A stretch of 43,949 bases of DNA from Microcaldota archaeon (GCA_021801385.1 JAJYYC010000007.1:1-43949), one strand, 5' to 3'. Positions 2,779 through 7,083 are shown, numbered from the stretch's first letter. Made by a program: numbers and translations. The notes: generated by a model not told the origin, from the sequence alone.

Positions 2779-3089
2779 GTAATAACCTAAACCTGATATT
2801 ATATTAGTTAGCTAAGCCTAAAGAATTTTACTGCATTGCGAGAAAGATGGATATATTTTGTAAGAATATAGAACTTTCAGAATATATGAATTTAGAAGAC
2901 ACAATTAAAAAGTATTTTGAAAATCACAGAACAAAATGAAAGAAGTAGCAAAAAGGCCAATAGTTTATATATCCCCAGAAAAACTCTGTGGAAAAACTTT
3001 ATGGTCTGTATGCAATTAGATGCTTCATAGTTATCTGTTCTCTCCACGCTAAAACTATGTTAGAAAAGAGGGACATTACACAGAATATG
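2779..3089. other. AT-rich gap with two very short overlapping ORFs
   Basis: This stretch between aspS and the left repeat of the tRNA-Pro element has no recognisable gene. On the plus strand ATG 2847 to TGA 2939 encodes 30 residues (begins MDIFCKNIEL). Its stop overlaps an ATG (ATGA at 2936) that opens a 27-residue frame ending at 3019 (begins MKEVAKRPIV). The ATGA overlap is typical of translational coupling, and both frames have protein-like composition, but neither matches a family I know. They may be microproteins, decay products of a larger gene, or chance. The aspS promoter must also lie here, just above 2778. Confidence 0.3.
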
Positions 3090-3113
3090 TATAACCCCCA
3101 AACAAGAATGGGG
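3090..3113 (+). repeat. Left direct repeat (att-like)
   Basis: It starts TATAACCCCCAAAC and ends AATGGGG. It matches 5952-5975 at 23 of 24 positions; the only difference is C at 3103 against A at 5965. The segment is itself dyad-symmetric with the next bases (ATAACCCCC at 3091-3099 against GGGGGTTAT at 3111-3119), so it can also form a hairpin. Confidence 0.75.
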
Positions 3114-3151
3114 GGTTATATATAAGAAGGACTTTTTGCACCCCCCTAACC
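3111..3151 (+). repeat. Left inverted repeat of the island
   Basis: It runs GGGGGTTATATATA, AAGAAGGA, TTTTTGCACCCCCCTAACC and is the imperfect reverse complement of 5922-5961, differing by a few single-base changes and one- or two-base gaps. The most conserved inner part is TTTTGCACCCCCCTAACC at 3134-3151 against the complement of 5922-5938. It sits 36 bp upstream of the first cargo gene, so it may also contain that gene's control region. Confidence 0.75.
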
Positions 3152-3187
3152 TATAATTATTAATCTTAAAAGTGGAAATTATAACGT

Positions 3188-4534
3188 ATGGACATGAAGG
3201 AAGAAGATAAGATTGACCTTTTTGAAATACCTATCGAAGTTTGGCTAATGATGCAAGAGGTAGCAGAAGGGCTGGATATTGGAGAAGGCGGTGTCTATGA
3301 TAAAAGAATCGGTGCTATAAACCTGTGGGCGTCACCCGAAGATAAGCCTATTGATTATAATTACCCAATAGTCAGCAAAGTTAAATATCCAAGAGAGTTC
3401 ATTGCAGCAATATATACGGAACCAGATTTAGTAGTACCGTTTATAGAAAAACCTTCAGATTTTAAAAAGATAAAAACCGTTAAATTATATGCTGATTTTG
3501 TTGCATCTGAAGGAAAAAGAAAGAGATCAGAGGAGAAAAAACCCTTGATATCAGAAAACGAACATGATTGGGTCAAGCAGAAAATTTCAACCCTAAGAAA
3601 ACTGGCTGAAATGCTTATTAAAGTTGAAAATTCTCATAAAAGTGAATTAGACAAGTTAACAGAAGAGCAAATTAAGAATTTTAATGATGAAGATACTGCT
3701 TTATTGGATATCATTAAAAAATTAGCGAATGCTACAATAGATGAAATTCTAAGGCTCGGCAAATTATCTGCAAAGGCAACTTATGCTGACCCACAAAGTA
3801 AACTCTACCAATATAATGCCCCAATTCTTGCTAAGTATTGTCATCTAATAGGTGGAGTTTGGTACCTTTTGGAAAAGAACAATTATTATGCATCCTTAAT
3901 TATCGAAAGGTCAATGTATGAGATTAGAATGTATCTACGCTATTTTTACTTACATCCGGATGAGATTTCAGATTACGAAAATCGTAAGGAATATGTCAAA
4001 AAGTTTGGTTCTAAAGCATATAATGAAAAATTCAGCAAACCTGCTATTCTAAAGAAGTTACTTGTAAATCCAAAAGATTTTGATAAAGAATATGCCTATT
4101 ATCAATTCCTTTGCAATGTAGATCATCCTTCTACAAAGTTTGCAATATTGCTAAGCAGTTCCAAACGAATTGAAGATGATAAAAACAATAAAATTCATGC
4201 TCTGCTTGAATTTAATCCTACATTTGAAAAGACAAAATATATGATGGGTTTACTTTCTTTAATTCACTATAACAACAGCATCATAGAAACCGAATATGAA
4301 ATAATGAAGGAAAACCCTGAATTGAATCCAAATAAAAAATTACTTGAAGCAAGTGTTGAGGTCTCAAAAGTATTAGGTTATAATACAGTATGGGCGCAGG
4401 AGGGAATTAGAGAATATTATTCAAGACTAAAAGGCCGAAAGCTTGAAGATATAAATAAACCTTTTGCGCAGTTAGGAGAGTATAAGCAGGAAATACAGGA
4501 TTTTTTAGATAATATGTTGGTAGGCGTACTTTGA
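3188..4534 (+). CDS. DUF5677-like hypothetical protein of the island
   Basis: 448 residues from ATG 3188, about 36 bp inside the left inverted repeat, with an AT-rich promoter (TATAATTATTAAT near 3152). The N-terminal part (1-120) is unfamiliar. Residues about 120-200 are charged and helical. The middle, about 215-330, has an all-helical section with YYASLIIERSMYEIRMYLR and a later CNVDHPST, reminiscent of DUF5677-type helical proteins, which are often found among defence and mobile genes. That assignment is weak. There is no signal peptide or membrane segment. The frame ends at CTT TGA TGA, and a frame shifted by +1 stays open for 62 more protein-like codons to TAG 4719, so the full-length product may be about 510 residues. 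Function unknown; it is the largest cargo gene of the island. Confidence 0.7.
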   Translation: MDMKEEDKIDLFEIPIEVWLMMQEVAEGLDIGEGGVYDKRIGAINLWASPEDKPIDYNYPIVSKVKYPREFIAAIYTEPDLVVPFIEKPSDFKKIKTVKLYADFVASEGKRKRSEEKKPLISENEHDWVKQKISTLRKLAEMLIKVENSHKSELDKLTEEQIKNFNDEDTALLDIIKKLANATIDEILRLGKLSAKATYADPQSKLYQYNAPILAKYCHLIGGVWYLLEKNNYYASLIIERSMYEIRMYLRYFYLHPDEISDYENRKEYVKKFGSKAYNEKFSKPAILKKLLVNPKDFDKEYAYYQFLCNVDHPSTKFAILLSSSKRIEDDKNNKIHALLEFNPTFEKTKYMMGLLSLIHYNNSIIETEYEIMKENPELNPNKKLLEASVEVSKVLGYNTVWAQEGIREYYSRLKGRKLEDINKPFAQLGEYKQEIQDFLDNMLVGVL

Positions 4535-4721
4535 TGAGGCCGACTTTACCATAACCTATTCATGGTACAGGTTATTTTCCAGATTTGATTCTAACAATCT
4601 TTTTATGATAAAGGACACCAAAATCGCTGAACTTTTGAAACCAATGGTATTAGGTATGAGGAAAAAATTAGCTGAGTTAGAGTACTTTAAGAAAACAGTT
4701 AATATGATGGGATGCAAATAG
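4533..4721 (+). other. Open +1-frame extension after CTT TGA
   Basis: Directly after the stop of the 448-residue ORF, a +1 shift at CTT TGA (4529-4534) enters a frame reading DEADFTITYSWYRLFSRFD and on to ELEYFKKTVNMMGCK before TAG at 4719. No start codon exists in this frame before ATG 4605, while the 24 codons ahead of that ATG also look coding, so a separate gene does not explain all of it. Either the island gene uses a programmed +1 frameshift (CTT TGA is the core of the bacterial prfB frameshift site) or it carries a real or sequencing frameshift. Confidence 0.55.
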
Positions 4722-4762
4722 TATTAAAGAGAAAACGAAACATACATTAACAGGGTATAAAC

Positions 4763-5587
4763 TTGAAGACAGAAGAATTAGTAGTAAAACCGCTTAATTT
4801 TACTCTAAGCAAAAGAGTAACATTCCCTATAGCAAATGAAGATCTTACACCCATAGCTAAGACTCTAAGAAAATTAAAAGATATGACATATTACTTGGGA
4901 ATATGTGGCGGCGGAACCCAGAATCTATACTTGTTGCAAGTACTTAGTAAATCAAACAAATTTAAATGGAGAAGACTGATAGATAATGACAGGGAGCAGT
5001 TGCTAAACTTTATGGATCTAAAAGAGGCTTTAGTGTATTCGAAAGATGACCTGCATTACCTATCAAAACTTGCCAAACGTCAACACAGAGTTGAAGGAAT
5101 TTATGATAGGTACTTTTATTTCCTTTTCAAAAACAGATCCAATGGCTTTGAAGAAACAAATCTAAAAAGGCCAAAACTGAAGAATATGGAAATCGAATTA
5201 GTATATAGCGAATTCTTTAAGTACATTAATACAGAGAAACTACCAAGAGGAAAATATTTCATTTATCTTTCTAATATATTTAGTTATACAAAAATGTCCC
5301 GAAGACTTTGGTGGATCAGAAGATGGTATATACTTAAAGAGTTATACCACGGTAATTTTAAAACGCCAAGGCTAAAAGCGGAATTAAATCATACAACCAA
5401 AGAACTTCAAAATACCATAGGCAAAAATAAAAATATACTTGACGGTTCGGTGATTTTGGTGTGGATGGGTGGTGTATTGCTTAGGACAAAACATAAGAGT
5501 ATTGTATTATTTAAAAAATCAAATCATAAAGTAGAAATACTTGTTGAGGTACCCCTGATTCACAACGATATTGATCGTCTTGGCTGA
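4763..5587 (+). CDS. Rossmann/methyltransferase-like protein of the island
   Basis: 274 residues from a TTG at 4763. Residues about 45-90 read YYLGICGGGTQNLYLLQVL, a stretch of charged residues, then LIDNDREQLLNF. This is the layout of a nucleotide- or SAM-binding Rossmann fold: a glycine-rich loop, then an acidic residue at the end of strand 2 followed by D-x-x-Q-L. It recalls DUF3419/BtaA-like proteins (GGG..., D.NP.QL, later ...SNIF), and 'YFIYLSNIFSY' near residue 170 fits that comparison. No certain family match can be made by eye. The C-terminal third contains basic, Trp-rich helices. It lies between the DUF5677-like gene and the peptidase gene, five bases before the latter, so the two downstream genes are probably co-transcribed. 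Confidence 0.6.
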   Translation: MKTEELVVKPLNFTLSKRVTFPIANEDLTPIAKTLRKLKDMTYYLGICGGGTQNLYLLQVLSKSNKFKWRRLIDNDREQLLNFMDLKEALVYSKDDLHYLSKLAKRQHRVEGIYDRYFYFLFKNRSNGFEETNLKRPKLKNMEIELVYSEFFKYINTEKLPRGKYFIYLSNIFSYTKMSRRLWWIRRWYILKELYHGNFKTPRLKAELNHTTKELQNTIGKNKNILDGSVILVWMGGVLLRTKHKSIVLFKKSNHKVEILVEVPLIHNDIDRLG

Positions 5588-5592
5588 AAAAC

Positions 5593-5910
5593 ATGAATAT
5601 CAATGAAAGAACCAAAGTACAATATTCAAGAGTTTACGGTGATAGCATGTTTCCAACATTAAGGTATGGAGACCTTGTGAGGATTATTCCAATTTTACCT
5701 CGTACATATAAGGATGTCAAAGTTGGGGAAATAGTCTCTTATTGGTCAAAAGGTTTCAATAGAAATGGCCAACCTCGCTTTTGGCATAAAGCAAATGTAG
5801 TTCATCGAATAGTAGGAAAAACTTTGACTTTTGCATTAATTAAGGGAGATAACCGAGATTACATTGAAAAAGTGCCATACGATAAAATAAATGGGAGAAT
5901 CTTATTATGA
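5593..5910 (+). CDS. Soluble Sec11-like (S26) serine peptidase homologue
   Basis: 105 residues. It carries the signal peptidase signatures: GDSMFPTLRYGD (catalytic Ser19 in the G-x-S-M-x-P-T-L box), a later VVHRIVG (the His that replaces Lys in archaeal and ER-type Sec11), and KGDNRDYIEKVPYDKINGRI (the box D/E aspartate region). Archaeal Sec11 normally has one or two membrane helices; none is present here, and the protein starts only about 15 residues before the Ser box. It may cleave a cytosolic substrate, be a minimal S24/S26 hybrid regulator, or process a peptide made by the element. It is the last gene before the right inverted repeat and follows the previous gene by five bases. S24/LexA-like is the main alternative, disfavoured by the His. 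Confidence 0.78.
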   Translation: MNINERTKVQYSRVYGDSMFPTLRYGDLVRIIPILPRTYKDVKVGEIVSYWSKGFNRNGQPRFWHKANVVHRIVGKTLTFALIKGDNRDYIEKVPYDKINGRILL

Positions 5911-5921
5911 ATCCGTATTAG

Positions 5922-5961
5922 GGTTAGGGGGTGCAAAATCCCTTCGCTATATATAACCCCC
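5922..5961 (-). repeat. Right inverted repeat of the island
   Basis: The reverse complement reads GGGGGTTATATATA, GCGAAGGGA, TTTTGCACCCCCTAACC and pairs with 3111-3151. It begins 11 bp after the stop codon of the peptidase gene and ends about 10 bp from the 3' end of tRNA-Pro. Confidence 0.75.
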
Positions 5962-5975
5962 AAAAAAGAATGGGG
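5952..5975 (+). repeat. Right direct repeat overlapping the tRNA-Pro 3' end
   Basis: Second copy of the 24-bp repeat (TATAACCCCCAAAA ... AATGGGG). The last five bases, 5971-5975, are the discriminator and first acceptor-stem bases of tRNA-Pro read on the opposite strand. This is the arrangement expected if the tRNA gene supplied the attachment site. Confidence 0.75.
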
Positions 5976-6043
5976 AGTCCGAGATTTGAACTCGGATCTC
6001 CAGCGCCCAAGGCTGGAAGTCTGCCAGGTTAGCGTAACTCCCC
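5971..6043 (-). tRNA. tRNA-Pro(UGG)
   Basis: 73 nt. The acceptor stem GGGGAGT pairs with ACTCCCC; discriminator A. Anticodon stem CCAGC/GCTGG with loop CTTGGGC gives anticodon TGG (Pro, CCN codons). T arm CCGAG-TTCAAAT-CTCGG is perfect. The variable loop is four bases (AGAT). CCA is not encoded. The D arm is poor: with the standard register only one Watson-Crick pair and a G-U form, though the loop keeps the GG pair (AACCTGG). The 3' end forms part of the right direct repeat of the neighbouring island. It is transcribed toward the island and divergent from the RFC gene. Confidence 0.88.
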
Positions 6044-6120
6044 ATGGCAGTATAGGTATAAATCGGCAAAGTTAATAAAGCATTCATCGAAATAATAAAA
6101 TCATTAATCTTGTGATTATT

Positions 6121-7083
6121 ATGATAGATTTACCGTGGACCGAAAAATACAGGCCAAAATCGCTCTCAGATGTGATCGGCCAGAGGCTCATCGTCGACAG
6201 GCTTAAGTCGTTTGTGGAGCGCGGCAACTTCCCGAATATGATATTTGCGGGCTTGCCAGGCGTCGGCAAGACCGCATGCGCGATAGCTATGGCACGTGAT
6301 CTCTATGGAGAGGGGCTTGAGGGCGCTTTCCATGAGCTCAACGCAAGCGACCAACGCGGCATAGATGTTATACGCGGCAACGTCAAGGAGTTTGCCAAAA
6401 CCAGATCGATAACAAGAGTCCCAATCAAGATCATCTTCCTTGATGAAGCAGACTCGCTCACTGCTGATGCCCAACATGCACTCAGGCGAACTATGGAAAC
6501 CTATTCCTCTGAGACCCGTTTCATACTCAGCGCCAACTACCCTAGCAAGATAATAGAGCCGATCCAGAGCAGGTGCGTTGTATTTAGGTTCAAGCCGCTC
6601 AGCGAGGATGAGATGAAAGATTACATATCTAGAATTGGCAAGGGTGAGAAACTTGAAATAGATCCGAAGGCGGTCGAGGCTCTCATCTATGTAAGCGAAG
6701 GAGACCTTAGAAAACTAACTAACGTGCTCCAGAGCGCGGCGATGAAAAGCGCAACTATAAGCGAATCAAGCATATACGATGTCGCATCGAGGGCGCGCCC
6801 AAAGGAGGTGATCATGATGCTCAACAACGCGGTATTGGGCAACTTCGACAGCGCAAGGACCGAACTGGACAACCTCATGCTTAAGCACGGGATGAGCGGC
6901 GAAGACATACTGATGCAGTGCTACAAAGAGGTCCAGAACCTTGACGTTGACGAGCGTGCGAAGCTCGGCGTCGTGAGGGAACTCGGCGAATGCAACTACA
7001 AGATAGTTGGCGGGGCGAACGAGCGCATACAGATGGAATCGATGCTCGCCAACCTTGCCCTCCTCAACCTGAAGAAAAAGTAA
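6121..7083 (+). CDS. rfcS: Replication factor C small subunit
   Basis: 320 residues from ATG 6121. This start puts the AT-rich box AAATAATAAAA (about 6090-6100) near -27, giving a leaderless message; a GTG at 6112 would add three residues. It is a AAA+ clamp-loader subunit that, with RFC large, opens PCNA at primer ends. The N-terminus LPWTEKYRPKSLSDVIGQ is the RFC box II/III signature. Walker A is GLPGVGKT (about 44-51), Walker B IIFLDEAD, sensor 1 LSANYPSKI, and the arginine-finger motif QSRC. The C-terminal collar domain is complete, and length and motifs are normal. It stands alone between tRNA-Pro and a nucleoside phosphorylase gene; the large subunit is not in the window. Confidence 0.97.
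   Translation: MIDLPWTEKYRPKSLSDVIGQRLIVDRLKSFVERGNFPNMIFAGLPGVGKTACAIAMARDLYGEGLEGAFHELNASDQRGIDVIRGNVKEFAKTRSITRVPIKIIFLDEADSLTADAQHALRRTMETYSSETRFILSANYPSKIIEPIQSRCVVFRFKPLSEDEMKDYISRIGKGEKLEIDPKAVEALIYVSEGDLRKLTNVLQSAAMKSATISESSIYDVASRARPKEVIMMLNNAVLGNFDSARTELDNLMLKHGMSGEDILMQCYKEVQNLDVDERAKLGVVRELGECNYKIVGGANERIQMESMLANLALLNLKKK

Follow-up and report, generated by a model that had tools for sequence, protein, structure and literature searches.

At the 3' end of a tRNA-Pro gene, positions 3113-5960 of the window (the whole stretch of 43,949 nucleotides that was analysed, from a Microcaldota archaeon) hold an island of 2.85 kb with three genes. Its features and those adjoining it are as follows.

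2835-3098, minus strand: remnant, by sequence match, of an older autonomous casposon (79% identity over 260 bp, E 3e-59)
3099-3112, minus strand: target-site duplication, distal copy CCCATTCTTGTTTG, 13/14 identical (from the sequence)
3113-3153, plus strand: left terminal inverted repeat, GGG(G)TTATATATAAGAAGGACTTTTTGCACCCCCC..., with a G run one base shorter than expected and than that on the right
3188-4534, plus strand: ORF1, 448 aa, weakly DUF5677-like (Pfam E 4e-4, below the cut-off)
4533-4718, plus strand: gene relic lacking a start (tblastn E 3e-5)
4763-5587, plus strand: ORF2, 274 aa, probable SAM-dependent methyltransferase fold (invariant GxCGG and D in the alignment)
5593-5910, plus strand: ORF3, 105 aa, small protein resembling archaeal signal peptidase I or S24 (TIGR02228 E 8e-8, below the cut-off)
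5919-5960, minus strand: right terminal inverted repeat, GGGGTTATATATAGCGAAGGGATTTTGCACCCCC... (repeat search and pattern scan)
5961-5974, minus strand: target-site duplication, tRNA-proximal copy CCCATTCTTTTTTG (from the sequence)
5970-6044, minus strand: tRNA-Pro(TGG), the integration target and "leader" (ARAGORN)
5983-5989, minus strand: TCAAATC in the T-loop, candidate casposase recognition motif (from the sequence; motif from PMC6614799; spacing conserved at 104 sites)

The three reading frames are open (3188-4534, 4763-5587, and 5593-5910), and the G+C content of 31-36% inside the island contrasts with 45-51% on both flanks, in agreement with the original prediction of three AT-rich genes between repeats. 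Inverted repeats of about 40 bp had also been predicted; they extend over 43 nt (3111-3153 and 5919-5961) with 77% complementarity, and their score of 18 exceeds the maximum of 13.5 among 60 dinucleotide-preserving shuffles of positions 2800-6300. The best long-range direct repeat scored 23.5, against a shuffle maximum of 16. The predicted direct repeat of 24 bp is therefore real and lies inside a repeat of 31 nt (3086-3116 and 5948-5978, 90% identity), but it is not a single unit. Its core, 3099-3112 and 5961-5974, is a target-site duplication identical at 13 of 14 positions. To the left of this core, both copies carry TATRTATAACCCC, which on the right is the outer end of the terminal repeat of the island itself, whereas on the left it is the outer end of the terminal repeat of an older element. 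The direct repeat is thus composed of the target-site duplication and the outermost part of an older casposon.

The termini of the island follow the pattern GGGGTTATATATA-N9-10-TTTTGCACCCC, in inverted orientation. Read on the minus strand from the tRNA outward, the order is TCAAATC-TCGGACTC-CCCATTCTTTTTTG-GGGGTTATATATAGCGAAGGGATTTTGCACCCCC..., and the distal boundary reads ...TTATATATAACCC-CCCATTCTTGTTTG-GGGGTTATACATATTC..., where the 14-mers CCCATTCTTTTTTG and CCCATTCTTGTTTG are the two copies of the duplication. This duplication includes the end of tRNA-Pro and starts with CCC, exactly 8 bp past TCAAATC. The insertion is not recent, to judge from the mismatch between the two copies (13 of 14 positions identical), from the complementarity of only 77% between the termini, and from the base missing in the left G run. 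Searches elsewhere gave no exact copy of the island.

Further copies of the terminal repeats exist in related genomes, where the original prediction had proposed to look for them. A scan of 164 genomes of the order for GGTTATATA-N8-16-TTTTGCACCC, with the reversed sequence as control, found GGTTATATA-N11-TTTTGCACCC in 18 genomes, always 30 nt long, and nothing in the control. Among 84,980 species genomes, the fixed pattern occurs in 20 stretches, all but two of which are titled Micrarchaeota or Mancarchaeum; one exception is a record titled Marsarchaeota that matches a genome of the same order (G109), and the other is a Thermoplasmatota bin. With few exceptions, these ends follow a gene for tRNA-Pro or tRNA-Glu at a distance of 10-12 nt. 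In the contig binned as Thermoplasmatota (L137, 3053-3082), the motif stands after CCCATCGTTTATAA and no tRNA was found nearby. The Thermoplasmatota are the phylum of the known hosts of Micrarchaeota, and transfer between symbiont and host, misbinning, or chance are all possible origins of this copy.

Target and terminus are linked by a rule of spacing. When the 164 genomes were scanned for TCAAATC followed by GGGGTTATATA, with any gap of 10-38 nt allowed and the rows counted by hand, 104 sites at tRNA ends were found in 73 genomes. The gap is 22 nt (8 + 14) at 95 sites, 21 nt at five, and 23 nt at four; other distances in the allowed range gave no sites, nor did the reversed control. Bases 9-22 of the 22-nt gap are the duplicated 14 bp, which at the tRNA-Glu sites starts with AGCA and not with CCC. 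Mutagenesis showed that the Aciduliprofundum boonei casposase, which acts at tRNA-Pro, needs TCAAATC at a distance of 8 bp before the 14 bp that are duplicated, and that these start with CC (PMC6614799). As far as motif and spacing can tell, the rule at these natural sites is that of the A. boonei enzyme. tRNAs of other types, whose 3' ends read, for example, GGGCCCA, also seem to bear a casposon end at the same spacing (G002:C15, G042:C6, and G122:C9). One contig (L079, G157 C21) has two copies of a tRNA-Glu 3' end with its duplication, at 2065 and 10165 and thus 8.1 kb apart, which are followed by two different types of terminus and share a repeated stretch longer than 14 bp.

Elements with these ends can be complete casposons. 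Genes for Cas1 are present in 18 of the 164 genomes, and four elements of 8.5-10.7 kb (L112, L113, L114, and L116) carry both cas1 and polB between the same termini as the island, with perfect 14-bp duplications at tRNA-Glu. A fifth, of 13 kb (L115), encodes Cas1 and PolB between ends of the TTTTGCACC type, as in the island. The Cas1 proteins have about 400 aa, and the best match in the PDB for the one tested is the casposase of Methanosarcina mazei, 6opm (E 5.5e-80, residues 3-398); the next Cas1 match has an E value of 5e-27, so that CRISPR Cas1 is far more distant. The polymerases carry YCDTDS or YCDTDA and are assigned as CDTDS-type B-family DNA polymerases from these motifs and a weak PHROG match; a sequence search of the PDB did not recognise the element polymerase. 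The polymerase of the A. boonei casposon belongs to the group named for the CDTDS motif (PMC7544198). A small HNH-like gene adjoins the polymerase gene (PHROG E 5e-4). In comparison with casposon family 2, this source lineage likewise targets tRNA genes, and its Cas1 of about 400 aa aligns with 6opm up to residue 398.

The island itself has two features by which casposons are recognised, terminal inverted repeats and a target-site duplication of 14-15 bp, and lacks the two others, since it encodes neither Cas1 nor a family B polymerase. No Cas1 match was obtained among its three proteins or by tblastn with a related casposase, and no family B DNA polymerase was found in it. In the host assembly, which is 77% complete, no credible cas1 was found; a candidate with an E value of 9e-4 was rejected because it falls in a different gene, of 138 aa and coiled-coil type. 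We therefore class the island solely as a non-autonomous derivative and not as a complete casposon, on the ground that its termini and target are common to the elements with Cas1 and PolB (L112-L116) and to the rule of TCAAATC-N22-terminus. It has counterparts that likewise lack both genes. In G101, an element of 4.15 kb (L083, 4365-8515) with terminal repeats of more than 100 bp is flanked by a perfect 14-bp duplication, and in G144 an element of 0.90 kb with a DUF5680 gene is likewise perfectly duplicated at its target. These observations suggest that Cas1-less forms do insert. The cargo of the 4.15-kb element consists of genes for a DDE transposase, a Y1 (IS200-type) transposase, and an FkbM methyltransferase. 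An engineered mini-casposon without cas1 has been moved in M. mazei in vivo and was found in tandem in an old target site (PMC10359463); we found no description of natural Cas1-less casposons in the open-licence literature.

The tRNA-Pro site also has a history. Positions 2835-3077 match the end nearest the tRNA in the G130 casposon with Cas1 and PolB (L112), and they also match G115 (L129). Inward from the distal duplication, this remnant consists of a terminal repeat, a subterminal box TCTAACATAGTTTTAG, and the frameshifted 3' end of a gene located behind polB in G130. Judged by these matches, the stretch of about 240 bp to the left of the island is what remains of an older Cas1/PolB casposon. 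In the same genus, G002 has a terminus of the older type abutting tRNA-Pro with a single copy of the duplication, as would be expected of the site before the young element was inserted, and G001 has the tRNA without any terminus; the empty site that the original prediction had proposed to seek thus exists. The order of events most likely was that the young element entered between the tRNA and the older casposon. G020 shows the same order: its Cas1/PolB casposon has tRNA-Glu on one side and another terminus on the other, with the new element beside the tRNA and the old one behind.

Two other loci bear on the arrangement of such ends. Directly beyond the full Cas1/PolB casposon of G130 (L112, 5437-5482; C22), an 18-bp palindrome, GGGGTTATATATAACCCC (5451-5468), stands between two near-copies of the 14-bp duplication; it consists of two bare casposon ends fused together and resembles a spacer-like micro-insertion. 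In G132 (L084, 1-3430; C24), a tandem pair of casposons lies at tRNA-Pro(CGG), in the first of which cas1 is broken. The repeat that separates the two is inverted relative to the tRNA-proximal copy, which suggests inversion through the terminal repeats.

The cargo varies among relatives. The three relatives in the same genus lack ORF1 and ORF2, and the outcome that was to refute the original prediction, the same genes in the same place in all relatives, did not occur. For ORF1, only one N-terminal relative (G158) was found among 197 relatives. The relic at 4533-4718 is the C-terminal part of a small gene whose neighbour in G132 and G101 (C24) is cas1 or what remains of it, and in G005 a casposon end; it appears AbrB-like by eye and has no Pfam match. 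The possibility that it is the C-terminus of a casposase was rejected, since full-length casposases have different ends. ORF2 is probably a SAM-dependent methyltransferase: its AlphaFold model (pLDDT 75) has methyltransferases as the top PDB folds, with low TM-scores. Among 301 genomes of the phylum, 14 contain a member of its family. In G033, which belongs to another genus, ORF2 and ORF3 are found together at tRNA-Pro with protein identities of 79% and 73%, which exceed that of the neighbouring rfcS (71%); dN/dS is about 0.1 for each, with dS near saturation. We take this recurrence, identity, and dN/dS to indicate selection on the cargo and perhaps exchange of cargo at the tRNA-Pro site; ORF2 and ORF3 look functional and appear to be under purifying selection. 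The pair in G033 (L190, 5940-9144) lies between a decayed end of the TTTTGCACC type and a different type of terminus, a second case of a tandem at tRNA-Pro with this pair as cargo. PADLOC gave no defence match for the cargo, and viral contigs searched with ORF1, ORF2, and the terminal pattern gave no matches.

Taken together, we estimate with a probability of about 0.9 that the island is a natural non-autonomous mini-casposon of a Micrarchaeota casposon lineage, presumably moved in trans by a casposase. It lacks Cas1, has its own cargo, and resides in an ultra-small archaeon. The mechanism that we propose starts from the observed termini, duplication, target motif with its spacing, autonomous relatives, and older relic. 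A casposase, presumably supplied in trans by an autonomous casposon, would recognise TCAAATC in the T-loop of tRNA-Pro and join one end of the element 8 bp beyond it, at the CCC of the acceptor stem; the other end would be joined 14 bp further, and these 14 bp would be duplicated. The site would already have held a Cas1/PolB casposon, later reduced to about 240 bp, and on such an occupied site the new element would be placed between the tRNA and the old one, leader-proximally, as are CRISPR spacers. Today the element lacks Cas1 and PolB and retains three cargo genes.

The most serious alternative, which is somewhat improbable though by no means negligible, is that a complete Cas1/PolB casposon was inserted by its own casposase and then lost both genes in place. 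It differs from the explanation above solely in the step of trans-mobilisation, and in both cases the island is derived from a casposon. Decaying casposons do occur (7.3 kb with a fragmentary cas1, L119; 5.3 kb with a partial cas1, L123; and G132 with its broken cas1), and the kinship of the relic at 4533-4718 with a gene beside cas1 fits such a loss; against it, the island has kept both ends and three open frames with no trace of cas1 or polB, and G101 and G144 hold compact elements that lack Cas1 and are flanked by perfect duplications. It is very improbable that the island is a cassette, invertible or regulatory, in which the host uses the inverted repeats as promoters or recombination sites: a TATA-like TTATATATA, noticed by eye in the termini, could drive ORF1-3 inward, but in 73 genomes these termini, which come with a target-site duplication, enclose unrelated cargo next to various tRNAs. 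The island's position at the 3' end of a tRNA gene, overlapped by a direct repeat, recalls the many viruses and plasmids of archaea that target tRNA genes with a tyrosine integrase, but such an origin is hardly credible here, since no integrase gene was recognised among the island proteins, the direct repeat spans only the last few tRNA bases, the inverted termini are shared with Cas1 elements, and the 8 + 14 spacing fits a casposase. The original prediction of a mobile element integrated at a tRNA 3' end, without an integrase gene of its own, is thus upheld by the termini, the duplication, and the relatives with the same ends, although the attachment is of the casposase mode and not of the integrase type that was meant. 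Its suggestion of a new recombination scheme finds no support, because inverted termini with a 14-bp duplication at a tRNA 3' end are the mode of Cas1 casposases and Cas1/PolB elements with the same termini occur in relatives.

Among known systems, the casposon of A. boonei (family 2) is alike in its target at the 3' end of tRNA-Pro, with TCAAATC 8 bp before a 14-bp duplication starting with CC, and in its inverted termini; elements related to the island also encode a CDTDS-type PolB and a Cas1 whose length is that of HTH-tailed casposases. The island differs in its size of 2.85 kb, its lack of Cas1, PolB, and HNH genes, and its host among the Micrarchaeota, and its lineage also uses tRNA-Glu and other tRNAs. 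MetMaz-C1 of M. mazei provides the closest solved casposase, 6opm. The M. mazei mini-casposon is alike in that a Cas1-less TSD-TIR-cargo-TIR-TSD unit moves in trans, in tandem into the old target (PMC10359463), whereas it was built in the laboratory and the island is natural, with genes of its own. Casposons have been described in the open-access literature from methanogens, Thaumarchaeota, A. boonei, and some bacteria.

The adaptation machinery of CRISPR is proposed to derive from casposons. In adaptation by Cas1-Cas2, too, the new unit enters the leader-proximal repeat and the repeat is duplicated; unlike a CRISPR locus, the island has no array of short spacers and no Cas2, and its "leader" is a tRNA gene. 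I would go further only as a speculation, itself rather unlikely: the tRNA genes of Micrarchaeota may naturally serve as leaders at which casposase alone builds stacks in the manner of CRISPR, in which full casposons, mini-casposons of 0.9-4 kb, and even bare fused ends are added successively beside the tRNA, each set apart by a duplicated 14-bp unit.

The locus opens up a large population of Micrarchaeota casposons, whose ends stand at tRNA genes in 73 of the 164 genomes and which includes natural Cas1-less elements and tandem insertion in the leader-proximal order of CRISPR. It offers about a hundred natural sites as a test of the laboratory-derived rule (TCAAATC, 8 bp, 14 bp), whose spacing they bear out. 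The locus also points to one route by which very small symbiont genomes may gain and swap cargo genes.
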